Positions 10,996-29,629 of a DNA stretch of 38,409 bases are shown here, in pieces. This DNA comes from a bacterium BMS3Abin11. GTDB taxonomy: Bacteria; Pseudomonadota; Gammaproteobacteria; BMS3Bbin11. The stretch's first letter is position 1. Each line of letters opens with the position of its first letter. The stretch covers positions 1-38,409 of the forward strand of contig BDTD01000029.1 in NCBI GenBank assembly GCA_002897635.1, read 5' to 3'. The notes beneath the pieces were generated by a model. That model ran no database searches. It saw nothing but the letters and a program-made list of their open reading frames with translations, and was not told the DNA's origin. Both the position numbers and the translations under genes were made by a program.

Positions 10996-12252
10996 CTACA
11001 TATTAGCGATAATTGCGTCACCGAAGCCGGAACAACTGACTTTCGATGCATTGTCCATCAGGCGTTCAAGGTCGTAGGTGACTGTGCCGGCCTGAATCGC
11101 ACCTTCGATACCCTTTATAATCAGATCTGCCGCTTCATCCCAGCCCATGTGTCGCAACATCATTTCCGCTGACAAAATTAGCGAACTTGGATTCACCTGA
11201 TCCTTACCTGCATATTTTGGCGCTGTGCCGTGAGTTGCCTCGAAAATTGCAATCTCATCAGACAGGTTTGCACCCGGTGCCAGCCCGATACCACCAACCT
11301 GTGCCGCCAGTGCATCGGAAATATAATCACCATTCAGGTTCATCGTGGCTATCACATCATATTCTTTCGGTCGCAGCAGAATTTGCTGCAAAAAGGCATC
11401 AGCGATGACATCCTTGATAATGATCTCTTTGCCTGTTTTTGGGTTTGTCATACAGCACCAGGGGCCGCCATCTATCTCAGTTGCACCGAATTCCTTCTTC
11501 GCCAACGCATAGCCCCAGGTCTTAAATGCACCTTCGGTAAATTTCATGATATTACCTTTATGCACCAGGGTAAGAGAATCCCGATCCTGATCAATGACGT
11601 ACTGTAATGCCCGACGAACCAGGCGCTCAGTACCTTCCTGCGAAATCGGTTTAATACCAATACCGGATGTCTCGGGGAAACGAATCTTACTGACCGACAT
11701 CTCCCTGCGCAGGAAATCAACCACCTTTTTCACTTCCTCACTGCCGGCTTCCCACTCGATCCCGGCATAGATATCCTCGGAGTTCTCTCGGAAAATCACC
11801 ATTTCTGTATCCTGAGGGCGCTTCAAGGGGCTAGGCACACCCTGAAAATAGCGCACTGGACGCAAACAGACATAAAGATCCAGATCCTGGCGTAATGCGA
11901 CATTGAGTGAACGGATCCCACCACCAACAGGTGTTGTCAACGGCCCCTTAATTGACACAACATACTCTCTGGCAGCAGCCAGCGTTTCAGCAGGCATCCA
12001 GTTATCGCCACCATAGGTAGCAACCGCCTTCTCACCAGCGAAGATCTCCATCCAGGCTATTGCTCGATCGCTATCGTATGCCTTTGCAATCGCCGCATCA
12101 ATAACCTTGCGCATGACAGGGGTGATATCAACACCAATGCCGTCACCCTCAATGTAAGCAATTATGGGCCTGTCAGGCACATTCAGGCTGCCATCAGTAT
12201 TCAGCGTAATCTTCTCACCGCCTGCGGGCAGTTCTATCTTTTCATATGACAT
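10996..12252 (-). CDS. icd: NADP-dependent isocitrate dehydrogenase
   Basis: A 418-residue TCA-cycle enzyme that oxidises isocitrate to 2-oxoglutarate. It has the E. coli-type length (416) and motifs: [13 protein letters not shown] near the N-terminus, the substrate and phosphorylation loop [17 protein letters not shown] with the regulatory serine at about 115, and the signature [25 protein letters not shown]. The serine site means it could be controlled by AceK; that gene is not in the window. GGAG lies 6 bases before the ATG. It is the first gene of an icd-clpS-clpA run on the minus strand. Confidence 0.96.
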
Positions 12253-13160: not shown

Positions 13161-13211
13161 ACCGCATTTAAGCTTTTAGGCTGCCTCTCTACAGGCAGCC
13201 AGTGGCGGTTT
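13159..13211 (+). terminator. Stem-loop after the CsgG-family gene
   Basis: An inner stem GGCTGCC (13179-13185) pairs with GGCAGCC (13194-13200) around 8 bases, and an outer stem AAACCGC (13159-13165) pairs with GCGGTTT (13205-13211). There is no clear T run after it, so termination is likely but not proven. Confidence 0.5.
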
Positions 13212-13214
13212 GTA

Positions 13215-13879
13215 ATGATAATACAGAGCAGGAACAAGGGCGTTTATTCAAATGTCATAAATGCACCTGGATCAAAATTTATACAGGTTTTTCATGCCAT
13301 CAGGCCATACTGGCTGTTATTGCTGTTTACCAGTATAGCGGTCATTGGCCTGATTTTTTTAGCACATGGCAAAGGCTCAATCTCAGCCCGAAAGAATTAA
13401 ATCAAAATGGCTTTGAAGAAAAAGTGCTTAAAGTTATCCGGAAATATGATATTCCACCGGATCGTATTGAATTTGAGATTACAGAACGCCTGGTTATCAG
13501 CAATCTCGAAAATACCATTGAGAAAATGCTGAAAATGAAGCAACACGTCTTCCGTTTTTCAGTTGATGACTTTGGTACAGGATATTCTTCACTCGCCTAT
13601 CTGAAAGAGCTGCCTATAAATCGCCTTAAAATTGACCGTTCTTTCATCTGTGATGTTACTGAAGACCGCAACGATGCGACCATCGTCGAAACAATAATTT
13701 CCATGTCTCATCACCTTGGCCTTGAAGTCGTAGCAGAAGGCGTAGAAACTCAGGAACAGCATTTTTTCCTTAGCCAGCATGCCTGTGATATCTTCCAGGG
13801 ATATTATTTCAGCGAGGCCCTGATAGCATCAGAAATCACCATGTTTGACTTGCAGCACAACAAAGAAAATCTGCAGTAG
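13215..13879 (+). pseudogene. Collapsed membrane-anchored EAL-domain gene
   Basis: Remains of a cyclic-di-GMP phosphodiesterase-type protein. One frame (13215-13400) begins with ATG and codes about 60 residues including a membrane helix (YWLLLLFTSIAVIGLIFLA). It then stops. A second frame, open from before 13370 to 13879, codes the C-terminal half of an EAL domain: LNLSPKELNQ, EFEITERL, DDFGTGYSSLAYL, LKIDRSFI and EGVET. The EAL signature itself, the first half of that domain and any GGDEF or sensor part are missing. The two pieces meet at about 13370 in different frames, which fits an internal deletion with frameshift. The metal-binding Glu of the EAL motif is lost, so no activity is expected. 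Confidence 0.82.
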
Positions 13880-13932: not shown

Positions 13933-15003
13933 ATGGCAACTTCAGTATTTCTTGGACTCTCAGGCGGTGTAGATTCTGCTGTTGCAGGATTGTTACTGAA
14001 ACAACGGGGCTACAATGTCACCGCCGTTTTCATGAAGAACTGGGAAGAAGATGATACAGAGGATTACTGTGCGGCGACTGAAGACCTGGCAATAGCGAAA
14101 GAAGTCGCCGACATACTGAATATCCCATTACTCACAGTTAACTTCGCAACAGAATACTGGGACAGGGTATTTGAGCACTTTCTGCAGGAATACCGGGCCG
14201 GCAGGACACCTAACCCCGACGTATTGTGTAATCGTGAGATAAAATTCAAGGCCTTTCTGGATTATGCACTGGATCATGGTGCAGGCACGATCGCAACCGG
14301 TCATTATGCTGATACGCATCAGTGCCATGGCAGTGCATATCTTGGCAAAGCAGCAGACAAAGACAAGGACCAGACCTATTTCCTTTATGCCATCGGTCAG
14401 TATGCGCTGGCACATAGTCTTTTCCCGCTCGCCACATTACAGAAAAATGCGGTAAGGGAGCTGGCACGTAGCAACAAACTGCCCAACTACAACCGAAAGG
14501 ACAGCACTGGCATATGTTTCATCGGCGAACGACGTTTTCGCGATTTTCTGGCGCAGTACCTTCCTGCCCAGCCTGGTGACATCCAGCAACTTGGCGGCCC
14601 AGTTATCGGGCAACATCGGGGCCTGATGTACTACACGATCGGCCAGCGCCAGGGACTTGGTATTGGTGGCCCGGGGGAACCATGGTTCGTCGTCAGTAAA
14701 GATATGGAAAACAACATCCTCTACGTTGTTGAAGGCAAAAATCACCCTGCACTGTTCCAGTCCAGTCTGGTAGCTGATGAATTACACTGGATAGCCAACC
14801 AGCCTCCAGTCCTGCCACTCAGCTGTACATCCCGTATTAGACACCGGCAAGCTGAACAAAACTGTCGACTTTCTGAAATAGATGATGGATGTATCAGGGT
14901 CGACTTTGAGCAACCACAAAGAGCTATAGCAACGGGTCAGTCTGTGGTCTTTTATGAAGGGGCCTTGTGCCTGGGCGGTGGCGTAATCAGTTCATCGCAG
15001 TAA
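13933..15003 (+). CDS. mnmA: tRNA-specific 2-thiouridylase MnmA
   Basis: A 356-residue enzyme that puts sulfur on U34 of Lys, Glu and Gln tRNAs. The PP-loop SGGVDS is at 10-15. The two catalytic cysteines lie in PNPDVLCNREIKF (C99) and STGICFIGER (C195). The middle part matches the MnmA interdomain region (DKDQTYFLY) and the C-terminal beta domain is complete. In many Gammaproteobacteria hflD follows mnmA and precedes purB. Here purB follows directly, and hflD lies 2.7 kb away on the other strand. Confidence 0.96.
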   Translation: MATSVFLGLSGGVDSAVAGLLLKQRGYNVTAVFMKNWEEDDTEDYCAATEDLAIAKEVADILNIPLLTVNFATEYWDRVFEHFLQEYRAGRTPNPDVLCNREIKFKAFLDYALDHGAGTIATGHYADTHQCHGSAYLGKAADKDKDQTYFLYAIGQYALAHSLFPLATLQKNAVRELARSNKLPNYNRKDSTGICFIGERRFRDFLAQYLPAQPGDIQQLGGPVIGQHRGLMYYTIGQRQGLGIGGPGEPWFVVSKDMENNILYVVEGKNHPALFQSSLVADELHWIANQPPVLPLSCTSRIRHRQAEQNCRLSEIDDGCIRVDFEQPQRAIATGQSVVFYEGALCLGGGVISSSQ

Positions 15004-15098: not shown

Positions 15099-16484
<1,386 letters not shown>

Positions 16485-17640: not shown

Positions 17641-17750
17641 GATAAAAGACTAAGGATGAAAGAAAAAACTGCTGCAGACTTACCCTGTCCTTGATCCTTA
17701 GTCTTTAGTCTTTAGTCTTTAGTCTTTAGTCTTTAGTCTTTAGTCTTCAT
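17641..17750. repeat. Heptamer arrays with six perfect TTTAGTC units
   Basis: The left arm (17642-17668) is ATAAAAG, ACTAAGG, ATGAAAG and a degenerate unit. The right arm (17687-17750) contains six perfect consecutive TTTAGTC units (17704-17745) preceded by a degenerate start. On the minus strand it reads GACTAAA six times directly after the hflD stop codon (17747-17749). Confidence 0.92.
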
Positions 17751-18385
17751 AAATTCATCAACTCCTCAGCCATCGCCGCAAACTGCTTGCGCCTGTACAA
17801 AAACTGTAAGCGTCCACCCCCAAGCTGCTCCCACAACACTGCCGCTCGTGTACCGGCTAATAACAAACAGCGAATTCGATTAACGATGTCGTTCTGCTGC
17901 AGAAAATCTGGGTTGCCCTTCACAATTATCCGGGGCTGCAAAGTGCTTATGGTTTCACTGTAGATATCAGCAAAGCGAGCAAGCAGGGTGGAATTGATAC
18001 CTGAGTCTTGTTGCATAAATTCAAAATAGTCCTTCTGGCGCTGTACGCTCTGGATAAGTGTGCTTAATTGCTCAAGTAACTCCGGTCGACGCAGCATTTT
18101 ATGGGTCAAATGCATCAGACTGAGTACGTATGCCAGGATTGTCAGACTGGTTTCAGTTTTATCACTGCCGGCAAAATCGGCTAATGTCCTCAGCCCAAGC
18201 GAAACACCTCCTGTTCCTGAGAAGACTGACGGCACATCATCGGCATCTATCTTAAACAGACTTTCAATGCTGCTGTGTATAGCACCTTCTTCTGCTCTAC
18301 CAATTGTCGCCAGTTGATGCACCAGTGTCGCTGACTGAAAAATACCTGCCAGTGCAAGTGTCCGATCTGTCAACGATGAGGTCAT
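17747..18385 (-). CDS. hflD: HflD, high-frequency-lysogenisation protein homologue
   Basis: A 212-residue, mostly helical protein matching HflD in length (213 in E. coli) and pattern: an N-terminal helix (RTLALAGIFQSATLVHQLA), the LGLRTLADF and ILAYVLSLMHLTHKML region, and the C-terminal LLAGTRAAVLWEQLGGGRLQFLYRR, which is strongly conserved. E. coli HflD binds phage lambda CII and lies between mnmA and purB. Here it is the last gene of a minus-strand operon. Its ATG overlaps the TGA of the AstE-like gene by one base, so it is translationally coupled to that gene. Its stop codon sits on a heptamer array. Confidence 0.9.
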   Translation of the reverse strand: MTSSLTDRTLALAGIFQSATLVHQLATIGRAEEGAIHSSIESLFKIDADDVPSVFSGTGGVSLGLRTLADFAGSDKTETSLTILAYVLSLMHLTHKMLRRPELLEQLSTLIQSVQRQKDYFEFMQQDSGINSTLLARFADIYSETISTLQPRIIVKGNPDFLQQNDIVNRIRCLLLAGTRAAVLWEQLGGGRLQFLYRRKQFAAMAEELMNL

Positions 18386-19455
18386 CAGCTTGTCTGTACC
18401 GGAATATTTTCATTTTCCGGTTTTTCCTTAATGGACTTCCAGTCTATACGCTCCATCAGATAGCAGAGACAATCCATTCGGATAATATTGGCATCATCTG
18501 TCAGCATGGCAGGCATCACTGGCACTGTAAGTTTATAGTCTTCACCGTCACGGGTGAAAAATTCTGCAGATCGATCCTTTCCATGTTTATCCCAGGCCTC
18601 AAGGAAGGCATCTGAGCCTTCTTTTATTCGACAAAATCGCTCGCCGCTGGCGATTTCAGAAAAGTTCATCGAAGTAAGGTTTTTACTGAACACTATATCT
18701 GTCCCATCATCCATGCCTGCACCATTAAAAGCGAAACTGTAAGTACTGGGTATTTTGATTATGGAAACAAGCTGGTACAAATCCATGTCATGTTCCACCA
18801 GCGGACGTTCAGGAAAGTGTGATAGATGCAAACAGGCATCAATATATTCTACCGCACATGCAACCCCATGCTGATCTCCCGGCAGTCCGCATTCCAGGGT
18901 TACCGCTGGGCAAAACTCTGACATACCCCAGGTACTGGTGGTGTCCGGTTTAACCGTATAGACAACAGTACGATTAAACAGCGTAGCCAGATGATAAAAG
19001 TTCTTTTCGTGCCTGCAGATGATGGCGAAATGGGGGTTTTTACCTGAATTATTATGGACATCAACAGCGGCAAAGACCTGCCGCTCAGACACCTCCTTCA
19101 TTACCTGATGTGTCATCTGATGCTCAGGGGTGTCACCATAGCCCCAGATACGATTGTAATCCGGCTGGCCTGGCAGGGTGCGTAGATTCTGTTCTGCTGC
19201 GGCGACGTTACCGATAAAAATAGACAGCGAACGCGGCAGTTCTCTGTCCTGATAGCGATGTAATATCTGCTGCATCACCAACAGGCCGGTATACTCATTG
19301 CCGTGTAACATAACACTCAGGAACAGACTATCTTTACGATTGCCTTCAAGATGGATTAATACAGGCCCACCAAGCAGATCAAACAGGCCTGCTGAATCGA
19401 CCTCCAGCAAACCGTCAGGTACCTGATGCAATACCCTGAAACCTAAATCGACCAT
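18385..19455 (-). CDS. AstE/aspartoacylase-like zinc hydrolase (M14 superfamily)
   Basis: A 356-residue cytoplasmic enzyme. The zinc ligands are in HGNE (51-54) and DVHNNSG (132-138), and the catalytic Glu is likely in VTLECG (about 188). This is the pattern of succinylglutamate desuccinylase and aspartoacylase, which cut amide bonds to small acyl groups. No arginine-succinyltransferase genes (astABCD) are present, so the substrate is unknown. It overlaps the GCS2-type ligase upstream by 13 bases and hflD downstream by one base, so ligase and hydrolase are likely made together. A pair that builds and trims gamma-glutamyl or similar amides is plausible but not shown. Confidence 0.8.
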   Translation of the reverse strand: MVDLGFRVLHQVPDGLLEVDSAGLFDLLGGPVLIHLEGNRKDSLFLSVMLHGNEYTGLLVMQQILHRYQDRELPRSLSIFIGNVAAAEQNLRTLPGQPDYNRIWGYGDTPEHQMTHQVMKEVSERQVFAAVDVHNNSGKNPHFAIICRHEKNFYHLATLFNRTVVYTVKPDTTSTWGMSEFCPAVTLECGLPGDQHGVACAVEYIDACLHLSHFPERPLVEHDMDLYQLVSIIKIPSTYSFAFNGAGMDDGTDIVFSKNLTSMNFSEIASGERFCRIKEGSDAFLEAWDKHGKDRSAEFFTRDGEDYKLTVPVMPAMLTDDANIIRMDCLCYLMERIDWKSIKEKPENENIPVQTS

Positions 19456-20876
19456 TCGTGCACCGGCTTGAAAGACTGTTGATTTTTGATATATGCCTCG
19501 GTCATTTCCTGCATACTACACTTGTGATGATATAAATAGTTACGCTGCCAGTTTGCACCATTCTGCCCTGATTCAACACGTGCCTTGATGACACCGAGTA
19601 AGTTTTCGATGTCAGTGTCGTCTATAGCCAGTGTTGCCAGACCTGATCGTGCGTAGGGTAACAGGTGATTCGTCAGTAATTCGCCCACATTCAGCTTTCC
19701 TATACCGGGCCAGCAGATATCAGCATCGAGTCCGCGCTCAGCAACAGTGTAAAAATCACCTTTTACCTGACTAAAACTGAGCTGTGATTCCGGAGCATCC
19801 TTTTCATTGGCCAGGCTTACAACCAGACCATAATAAAGTGCGGCATTCGCAATCATGTCAATGATAGTTGGGCCGGCAGGCACTACCCGTTGTTCAATAC
19901 GCAAATGATAACCTGCGTCATCGACACCTATCAGTGGGCGGTTCCAGCGCCAGATGGTGCCGTTATGCAGTCGCAGATGCCACAGATTTTTCTCATCCCC
20001 ATCATTTAAGGTGGGCAACAATACAGGATACAGGGCAATATTTTCCTCAAACAGCTCAAACACTGACTCTTTACACCAGTCGTGGCCGAAGGTGGCTCGT
20101 GAATGACCGGTATGGCCTGTGATGACACTCTCTTTTTCAGTATTTACCGCTTGCTCAAACAGGGGTATGCGTGACTCCGACCACAGATCCCTGCCGAAAA
20201 GAAAAGGGGAATTTGCTGCGGCCGCAAGCAATGGAGCCGATGTGAGAACTGAAGCATTGTAGTAACGAACTGCATGCTCTGGCTTAACCTGCAAATGGAT
20301 CTGAAATGATGTTGCCGCTGCTTCCAGCATGACATCATAATGACTGCTTTGCAGATGATCACGACCGCTGATGTCGAGCCGGATTGGAAGACCACGACGT
20401 AGTTTGAGTATCTGTTCATTGAGTGCACGGTAGCGCTCCACCTCAGACATATTGGCCATCGTCAGATGCGCATCATCAAGCACTGGCAGTGTCCCCATCA
20501 TGGCAAGACGGGTATCCAGCGTTGCCGCTGTCTCTATGCATGACTGCCACAGACTGGATAAATCCGACTGCATCAGGCTCAGTACTTTTCCCCGCAATTC
20601 ATGTGGTTCGGAGTTCAGTTCCACATTAAATCGTGACAGCTCGTGGACAACCAGAGGATTCGACAAACGATTAATAAATACCTGATTGACGGGTGCCGGT
20701 TGCGTTGTCCGGTCTAACAGCCAGGCTTCCAGCTCGTAACCACCGACCGCATGGCTGGATATGAACGCACTGTTATCAAACAGCCCGTGCAACAGGGCTG
20801 TTTCATGTATAAGCCTGTGCTGAAATTTCTCGAAGTCAGCGCTTGTGTACTCTGATTTTTCAATTTCCTGACCCAT
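19443..20876 (-). CDS. GCS2-type glutamate-cysteine ligase-like protein
   Basis: A 477-residue protein of the glutamine-synthetase-like carboxylate-amine ligase superfamily. Family features include YELEAWLLD for metal binding near residue 50, FNVELNSEPHELRG, a central TSFQIHLQVKPEHAVRYYNA region with nucleotide-binding residues, and WRWNRPLIGVDDAGYHLRIEQRVVPAGPT. The group includes plant/proteobacterial GshA-type ligases and YbdK-like enzymes. It may make gamma-glutamylcysteine, but gshB is not here, and a different amide product is possible. It starts the coupled three-gene operon with the AstE-like gene and hflD. GAGAAG precedes the start codon. A BIME-like repeat lies upstream. Confidence 0.75.
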   Translation of the reverse strand: MGQEIEKSEYTSADFEKFQHRLIHETALLHGLFDNSAFISSHAVGGYELEAWLLDRTTQPAPVNQVFINRLSNPLVVHELSRFNVELNSEPHELRGKVLSLMQSDLSSLWQSCIETAATLDTRLAMMGTLPVLDDAHLTMANMSEVERYRALNEQILKLRRGLPIRLDISGRDHLQSSHYDVMLEAAATSFQIHLQVKPEHAVRYYNASVLTSAPLLAAAANSPFLFGRDLWSESRIPLFEQAVNTEKESVITGHTGHSRATFGHDWCKESVFELFEENIALYPVLLPTLNDGDEKNLWHLRLHNGTIWRWNRPLIGVDDAGYHLRIEQRVVPAGPTIIDMIANAALYYGLVVSLANEKDAPESQLSFSQVKGDFYTVAERGLDADICWPGIGKLNVGELLTNHLLPYARSGLATLAIDDTDIENLLGVIKARVESGQNGANWQRNYLYHHKCSMQEMTEAYIKNQQSFKPVHEWSI

Positions 20877-28495: not shown

Positions 28496-29629
28496 TTGAA
28501 ACCATATAAATCGCGCCTACCCGCTGAATGGGAACACCAGAGCGGTATCCTTATCAGCTGGCCGACGAACTCTACAGACTGGTGCGATAATCTGGCAGAT
28601 GCTGAAGCCACCTATGTTGAGCTCACTAAATTAATTGCCCAGAATTGCCATGCATATATCTGCTGTGACAATTCAGATACCCGGCAGCATGTCCAGCAAT
28701 GCTGTAATAAGGCAGGCATACCCTCTGAACGGTTTGAGCTCTTTACCATTCCTTATGATGACACCTGGACAAGGGATTACGGACCGATAAGCCTGGTCAG
28801 GGAAAACGACGTAGTGTGGTTGAATTTTAAATTCAATGCCTGGGGCAATAAACACCCGCATCAACAGGACAATCTTCTCACTTCATTGCTACACCAGCAG
28901 TTCAGCCCAAAAAGAGTCCTTGAAACCATCAATTTCGTCCTTGAAGGCGGCAGTATAGAGTGCGATGGCGATAACACTGTCATAACGACCAGTCTTTGCC
29001 TGCTGGATCCGGCACGAAACTCAGGCCTGTACCACAACACTGCCATTGTTCTAGATAGTGACGGAAGTCTGGCGGACTGCTATCGCAAAATGCACATCCC
29101 TGATGACCCCGGTTATTATGAAAAATACTATTTTGCGCCCGGAGATACAGGATTCAAGCCGATTAGAACCAGTCTCGGCAACATTGGTGTTCTGCTGTGC
29201 TGGGATCAATGGTTTCCCGAAGCGGCACGATTAATGGCTCTCGCTGGTGCAGAGTTACTGGTCTACCCAACCGCTATAGGCTGGGATCCAGCCGATAATG
29301 AAACAGAGCAACAAAATCAGCTGGACAGCTGGATAACGGTTCAGAGTGGTCATGCCATCACTAATGGCATACCATTGCTGACAGCTAACCGACATGGGCT
29401 TGAAATTGATCCATCCGGTAATACTAAAGGAATCAACTTCTGGGGAAACAGCTTTATCTGCGGTCCACAGGGTGAAATACTGTCACAGGCCGGTGCCAGC
29501 AAAGACTGTCTACTACAGACTGAAATTAACTTAAACTACTGTGAAAGAATTAGACAGACCTGGCCATTTCTGCGCGACCGACGAACTGATGCCTATGCAG
29601 GACTTAGCCAACAATTTCTTGATGATTAA
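28496..29629 (+). pseudogene. In-frame chimera of agmatine deiminase and N-carbamoylputrescine amidase
   Basis: The 377-residue frame joins two half-enzymes of the agmatine-to-putrescine pathway. Residues 1 to about 172 match the N-terminal half of agmatine deiminase (AguA): LPAEWEHQSGILISWP, PYDDTWTRDYGPI and FVLEGGSIECDG. Residues about 176-377 match the C-terminal part of N-carbamoylputrescine amidase (AguB): YRKMHIPDDPGYYEKYYFAPGDTGF with the catalytic Lys (198), GVLLCWDQWFPEAARLMAL with the catalytic Cys (225), then YPTAIGWDP. AguA lacks its C-terminal catalytic His and Cys; AguB lacks its first 80 or so residues with the catalytic Glu. The join (about 29006-29030) is in frame and both halves are otherwise clean. 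A deletion across adjacent aguA and aguB explains it; activity is not expected. The start is a weak TTG without a clear ribosome site. Confidence 0.85.

Follow-up and report, generated by a model that had tools for sequence, protein, structure and literature searches.

In the 38,409-nucleotide stretch analysed here (the window: contig BDTD01000029.1 of assembly GCA_002897635.1, from the gammaproteobacterium BMS3Abin11), the minus strand carries a run of three overlapping genes in which a GCS2-type carboxylate-amine ligase and an AstE-like hydrolase are followed by hflD. The ligase-hydrolase pair is real and widely conserved, being carried by about one third of the sampled genomes of its class, and there is roughly an even chance that the two enzymes carry out two steps of one small-molecule pathway. 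By contrast with this pair, hflD looks like a lineage-specific passenger and a late arrival. The run, all on the minus strand, is made up of:

19443-20876, minus strand: GCS2-type ATP-dependent carboxylate-amine ligase, 477 amino acids, first gene of the run (PF04107, motifs, model)
18385-19455, minus strand: AstE/aspartoacylase-like zinc amidohydrolase, 356 amino acids, second gene of the run (PF24827, residues, model)
17747-18385, minus strand: hflD, third gene of the run (NF001246, 211.9 bits)
19443-19455, minus strand: overlap of ligase and hydrolase genes, 13 bases (direct sequence reading)
18385, minus strand: overlap of hydrolase stop and hflD start, 1 base, TGATG (direct sequence reading)

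The ligase gene ends with a TAG (19445-19443) within the hydrolase gene, which begins with an ATG at 19455, and the A at 18385 is common to the TGA of the hydrolase and the ATG of hflD. This agrees with the initial annotation, which had described a minus-strand overlapping run with hflD third and overlaps of 13 bases and 1 base. A promoter and terminator scan came out barely above shuffles (8 versus 5.7 and 5 versus 3.4).

Conservation of the pair

How regularly do the two genes occur together? Among 369 genomes of the class (Gammaproteobacteria), evenly drawn from a larger group, the ligase was found in 133 and the hydrolase in 130; 126 genomes have both, seven only the ligase and four only the hydrolase (Fisher p ~4e-84, with phylogeny ignored). 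The ligase comes first, with the hydrolase within 600 bases on the same strand, in 113 of the 126 co-carriers, and in 90 of these the distance is at most 50 bases. Left out of this count were one weak hydrolase piece (G220) and, in 10 genomes, secondary ligase pieces; four of the 10 were added back (G137, G290, G297, G337), as a ligase fragment stands there directly before the hydrolase at a contig or record end, which brings the adjacent cases to 117 of 126. Whether the pair is conserved across genomes was the check that the initial annotation had proposed, and rare adjacency was not seen. Of the remaining nine genomes, five have the genes on one strand at a distance of 0.9-2.5 kb, and in the other four (G012, G026, G070, G245) they lie elsewhere. 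At least two of these four retain both genes unlinked: G026 with 1.65 Mb between them on a single contig, and G245 with each in a contig interior.

A closer view comes from named loci, of which the 80 best among 590 confirmed ones were taken and which favour close relatives; nine of them have no called ligase open reading frame (ORF), the calls being mechanical. The hydrolase is found within 1.5 kb of the ligase in 71 of the 80, and among the 71 loci for which a ligase ORF was called, 10 show the 13-base overlap again (ORF starts are likewise mechanical). Titles of these loci include Methylococcaceae, Chromatiaceae, Sedimenticola, Nitrosomonas, Kordiimonas and Methylocystis. Two side observations concern individual loci. 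The contig of L048 is labelled as a Halobacteria archaeon, yet its ligase falls inside a proteobacterial tree group, so that a binning error is likely. In four loci of the Methylococcaceae tree group (L072, L093, L103, L110) the hydrolase is followed by a cluster 25 gene; a different member of this cluster is a YcgN-type cysteine-cluster protein.

The two enzymes

The ligase is a remote member of the GCS2 family (PF04107, 32.2 bits with a gathering cut-off of 21). Its residues were compared in an alignment of 46 members, the window's own and those of 45 named loci; 38 of the 46 match PF04107 at E<=0.01. The GhExE motif, described in PMC2588565 as an Mg/ATP-binding motif, reads G46-Y-E48-L-E50 in the window's enzyme, and the glycine and both glutamates are present in all 46 members, as are N84/E86/N88, H194, R326, E328 and R330. 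The predicted structural model (predicted local distance difference test score, pLDDT, 93.6) has a glutamine-synthetase-type fold and matches best the YbdK-type structures 1tt4 (Z 38.1, root-mean-square deviation 2.4, 345 aligned) and 1r8g (Z 37.5), then plant glutamate-cysteine ligase (2gwc, Z 32.9) and the yeast glutamate-cysteine ligase (Z 29.4), with Dop (4b0r, Z 19.6) and PafA (4bjr, Z 18.3) further down. Like the YbdK-type and glutamate-cysteine ligases, the enzyme has the GhExE motif and, as far as the model goes, would share their fold across most of its length. It differs from the curated YbdK, GshA and EgtA families in having an AstE-like hydrolase as its partner and in sequence scores far under the curated cut-offs: 27.4 bits for YbdK TIGR02050 (cut-off 176.4), 25.4 for NF010043 (409) and 12.9 for EgtA TIGR03444 (370.8). 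A profile of the ligase family gave no match among the PDB sequences at E up to 1, and a PDB sequence search returned just two enoyl-CoA hydratase rows (E 0.035-0.04), taken as chance. A whole-genome search with PF04107 was unusable for scoring presence, as it found two of eight relatives and missed the window's own genome. Lone ligase homologues with 25-36% identity were seen on large replicons of Streptomyces, Tsukamurella and Natrinema (L036, L037, L038).

The hydrolase belongs to the AstE_AspA_cat family (PF24827, 33.1 bits, gathering cut-off 25). H51, E54, H134 and E188, together with the set R92/N101/R102, do not vary in any of the 44 aligned members, and we take these residues from the family to be the zinc ligands, the catalytic base (Glu) and the carboxylate binders. 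In a profile alignment, the HGNE motif and the R/N/R positions align with those of AstE. The predicted model (pLDDT 94.2) matches AstE (1yw4, Z 21.3), aspartoacylase (19.7), DoeB (19.4) and CphZ (17.5), which share its fold; AstE shares the placement of HGNE and R/N/R as well. The enzyme nevertheless stands outside the curated equivalogs, scoring 14.6 bits for AstE TIGR03242 (cut-off 305.65) and 17.6 for aspartoacylase NF002601 (180), far too low for either, and by profile its top solved relative reaches just E 2.2e-5. A PDB sequence search with the hydrolase alone gave zero matches. Both enzymes are apparently active.

What might the pair do?

The two-step reading outlined above would run as follows. 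The GCS2-type enzyme would activate a carboxylate, most likely that of a glutamate-like substrate, with ATP to give an acyl-phosphate; the activated acyl would be joined to an amine to form an amide; and the AstE-like zinc enzyme would later cut an amide in the same pathway, the acyl group serving as a temporary handle. The case for a common pathway is built on near-strict co-occurrence, adjacency, overlapping frames, intact catalytic signatures, the model folds and independence from glutathione synthesis. We infer each reaction, the order of the steps, the linked substrates and the glutamyl nature of the group. The initial annotation had suggested, as a possibility, a module that makes and cuts a gamma-glutamyl-like amide, with hflD coupled to it; the make-and-cut part is consistent with both enzyme families, the gamma-glutamyl nature of the amide being putative, whereas the part concerning hflD found no support.

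Several observations weigh against a common pathway. Substrate residues are not assignable in either enzyme, the scores to all curated ligase and hydrolase equivalogs are far under cut-off, and that the product of one enzyme is the substrate of the other is itself something we infer. The pairing also has gaps. Two of the seven ligase-only genomes (G316 and G359) have the ligase as truncated pieces only, and the four hydrolase-only genomes stand beside them. In G099 and G219, which belong to one family, the hydrolase comes right behind murU, and the search for the ligase gave no match in either genome; G330 retains hydrolase and hflD without the ligase; and no pair-type hydrolase was found within 6 kb of the plasmid homologues of Streptomyces, Tsukamurella and Natrinema.

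A precedent with a similar logic is found in ergothioneine synthesis, for which PMC6154287 describes an EgtA-type gamma-glutamylcysteine ligase and the amidohydrolase EgtC in one operon. The likeness lies in the combination of such a ligase with an amidohydrolase; EgtC has a class II amidotransferase fold (PF13230), unlike the AstE-like zinc hydrolase of the pair. In that pathway EgtC removes the glutamyl group. One genome, G188, has at L180 4965-7227 a divergent ligase homologue (34% identity) preceded by an EgtC-like gene (TIGR03442, 171.6 bits, under the cut-off of 218.65), again a ligase beside a hydrolase. The genes downstream of this homologue are, by eye, cyclase-like and flavin adenine dinucleotide (FAD)-enzyme-like.

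Could the ligase simply be the glutamate-cysteine ligase that the cell uses for glutathione? The GCS2 family name invites this, and the initial annotation had named a plain GshA accompanied by gshB as an outcome that would undo its proposal. The window's genome (G000) has a type III gshA (PF08886, 607 bits) adjoining gshB on a contig (C26) separate from that of the pair. Three glutamate-cysteine ligase families were searched in a sample of 274 genomes, 102 of them ligase carriers. Type III GshA is present in 45 of the 102 and type I GshA in 49 of the 57 carriers without type III (with partial matches in G055, G073 and G192), and five of the eight carriers left over have a separate GCS2-type ligase (PF04107) of ~300 bits, so that another glutamate-cysteine ligase is present in 99 of 102 carriers. 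No other ligase of the three searched families was found in G045 (81% complete), G243 (55%) and G190 (98%), and the nearly complete G190 speaks for a glutathione role, as does the ATP-binding family of gshB (PF02955), matched in 98 of the 102. Six of these 98 matches are weak (E 1e-15 to 1e-23; G012, G045, G126, G170, G213, G264) and may be other ATP-grasp enzymes. Given the separate gshA next to gshB in the window's genome and another ligase in 99 of 102 carriers, the window's enzyme is not regarded as a glutathione enzyme; its identity as a plain GshA was dropped, and a glutathione role, already largely refuted, is extremely unlikely.

The pair might also form a reversible conjugation switch: a group coupled by the ligase to a metabolite or protein would be taken off again by the hydrolase, as PafA and Dop do with Pup. 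Pupylation, described in PMC2588565 and PMC7947786, supplies a precedent for a ligase and its reversal. The near-strict pairing and order would suit such a switch, and the ligase model also matches Dop and PafA; however, YbdK-type enzymes and glutamate-cysteine ligases come closest (Z 38 and 33, against 19.6). Moreover, the hydrolases best matched by the second model (AstE, aspartoacylase and DoeB) act on small N-acyl amino acids. We regard a switch as unlikely. Inherited synteny, with conserved neighbours that have no common function, draws on the co-occurrence test, which is not corrected for phylogeny, and on loci that lie within a longer conserved neighbourhood (rho, trx, murU, lipA, lipB). 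Against it stand the joint presence and absence across the sample and the retention of both genes, unlinked, in G026 and G245, and synteny seems a quite improbable explanation of the pair.

The murU and amgK neighbourhood

The initial annotation had stated that the pair has no known partner pathway. This is true for the window alone. Of the loci examined elsewhere, roughly every second one has murU directly upstream, often together with amgK. Outside the hflD lineage these two are the commonest upstream neighbours of the pair. In 41 of the 80 named loci, murU is just upstream of the ligase. The place of amgK was listed for 88 of the 119 carriers with AmgK, and 47 of these 88 have it no more than 4.5 kb upstream, mostly ~700-900 bases away, which is space for murU alone. 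One member of each was checked: MurU scores 323.8 bits with the equivalog NF045761 (cut-off 250), and AmgK scores 301.6 bits with NF045759, under the cut-off of 550. PMC5371407 describes MurU and AmgK as enzymes of N-acetylmuramic acid (MurNAc) salvage.

Is the pair then an unrecognised branch of peptidoglycan recycling that feeds AmgK-MurU salvage? The hydrolase, as an M14-like enzyme, would cut an amide in stem peptides or MurNAc-peptides that the cell recovers, in the way that MpaA cuts the bond between gamma-D-Glu and meso-diaminopimelic acid (mDAP), and the GCS2-type ligase would remake a gamma-glutamyl or lactyl amide on them. What suggests this branch is the upstream position of murU and amgK in the counts above and the murU-hydrolase arrangement without a ligase in G099 and G219 (L184, L185). 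Recycling by MpaA and Mpl offers an analogy in that MpaA, too, is an M14-type hydrolase (of the gamma-D-Glu-mDAP bond, according to PMC6403190) and that the pair is often found beside murU and amgK. MpaA differs from the window's hydrolase, however, matching the hydrolase profile at just E 0.66. Mpl is a Mur-type ligase, not a GCS2 enzyme. Against this branch, AmgK is present in 194 of 236 genomes without the ligase and in 119 of 133 with it (p = 0.07), and the genome of the window carries amgK on a contig other than that of the pair. As AmgK is nearly as common without the ligase, it is position alone, not presence, that ties amgK to the pair, and a link by co-occurrence alone was dropped as not discriminating. 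On balance, a recycling branch is a doubtful reading.

The placement of hflD

The third gene of the run is firmly identified: it gives 205 bits with PF04356 and, with the HflD equivalog NF001246, its 211.9 bits stand over a cut-off of 181, while five sister models scored under their own cut-offs. It is single-copy, with one match in the window's genome. On the other strand of the window lie:

13933-15003, plus strand: mnmA
15099-16484, plus strand: purB, directly after mnmA

The hflD ORF lies 2.74 kb past the end of mnmA on the opposite strand. These coordinates agree with the initial annotation, which had purB directly after mnmA and hflD 2.7 kb off on the other strand. It had also given the usual place of hflD as between mnmA and purB, which holds for one side only. 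Of 35 genomes searched, 29 have hflD; outside the window's group mnmA is just upstream of it on the same strand in 17 of 22 (gap up to ~0.55 kb), whereas purB lies in the hflD flank (within 1.5 kb) in just one of the 22 and is therefore not a general neighbour. The other five of the 22, among them L165, which ends at a contig edge, show no mnmA in the hflD flank.

When did hflD join the pair? Among the genomes with hflD, it stands behind the hydrolase in all seven from the window's group and in none of the remaining 22, 18 of which carry the pair and have a located hflD. In a tree of 116 ligase rows, made with a quick method, nine hflD-coupled rows (families f1, f110 and f123) cluster, with one change when counted against the murU-linked rows alone (49 rows in neither group went uncounted) and a Shimodaira-Hasegawa-like approximate likelihood ratio test (SH-aLRT) value of 93. 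The murU-linked rows are scattered across the tree. The same fork also includes two rows of the same genus with early contig ends and two long actinobacterial rows, which may be misplaced. On the simplest reading, the murU-linked order is probably the older one and hflD joined the pair once, in an ancestor of the three families. In this lineage hflD is presumably co-transcribed with the pair while standing outside its chemistry.

That hflD belongs functionally to the module, for instance by placing it at the membrane, is improbable. It would fit the overlapping frames, the arrangement in all seven group genomes with hflD, the hydrolase-hflD remnant that G330 retains after the ligase has gone, and the congener G002, in which neither ligase, hydrolase nor hflD has a match; G002, however, is 91% complete in 200 contigs, and the locus may be unassembled. 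The coupled rows form one tree group, and the 22 other genomes, with mnmA upstream of hflD in 17, are uncoupled. A role for hflD in the module finds no support in this distribution, and hflD was dropped as a core partner.

Two further observations concern hflD and its surroundings. An NlpC/P60 peptidase gene (PF00877; 17193-17639, plus strand) is convergent to hflD in the window and keeps this place in the relatives G001, G003 and G004. In L126 (G232), a second, partial hflD (13200-13559, 119 amino acids) lies ~1 kb downstream of the first copy (11529-12188) and is nearly identical to the back half of that copy.

A chimeric ORF elsewhere in the window

At 28496-29629 on the plus strand, an ORF of 377 amino acids is an in-frame chimera of a front half of agmatine-deiminase type (PF04371) and the back two thirds of a carbon-nitrogen hydrolase (PF00795). 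Its two parts match two separate neighbouring places in six of seven relatives searched. Compared with G001, the window lacks ~931 bases here, and the two parts overlap by 7 bases where they join; the chimera may reflect a genuine deletion or a fault of the assembly.

What the pair means

Both superfamilies are known; for their strict pairing, no description came up in the literature searched, and absence there is not absence in print. Record titles of the carriers include methane oxidisers, sulfur oxidisers, animal symbionts and nitrifiers. With a tightly paired ligase and hydrolase in 126 of 369 genomes of the class, both far under the cut-offs of characterised families, these bacteria would have a metabolite or a cell-wall step yet to be assigned. 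If the position behind murU and amgK does reflect a common role, cell-wall recycling may have an extra branch.

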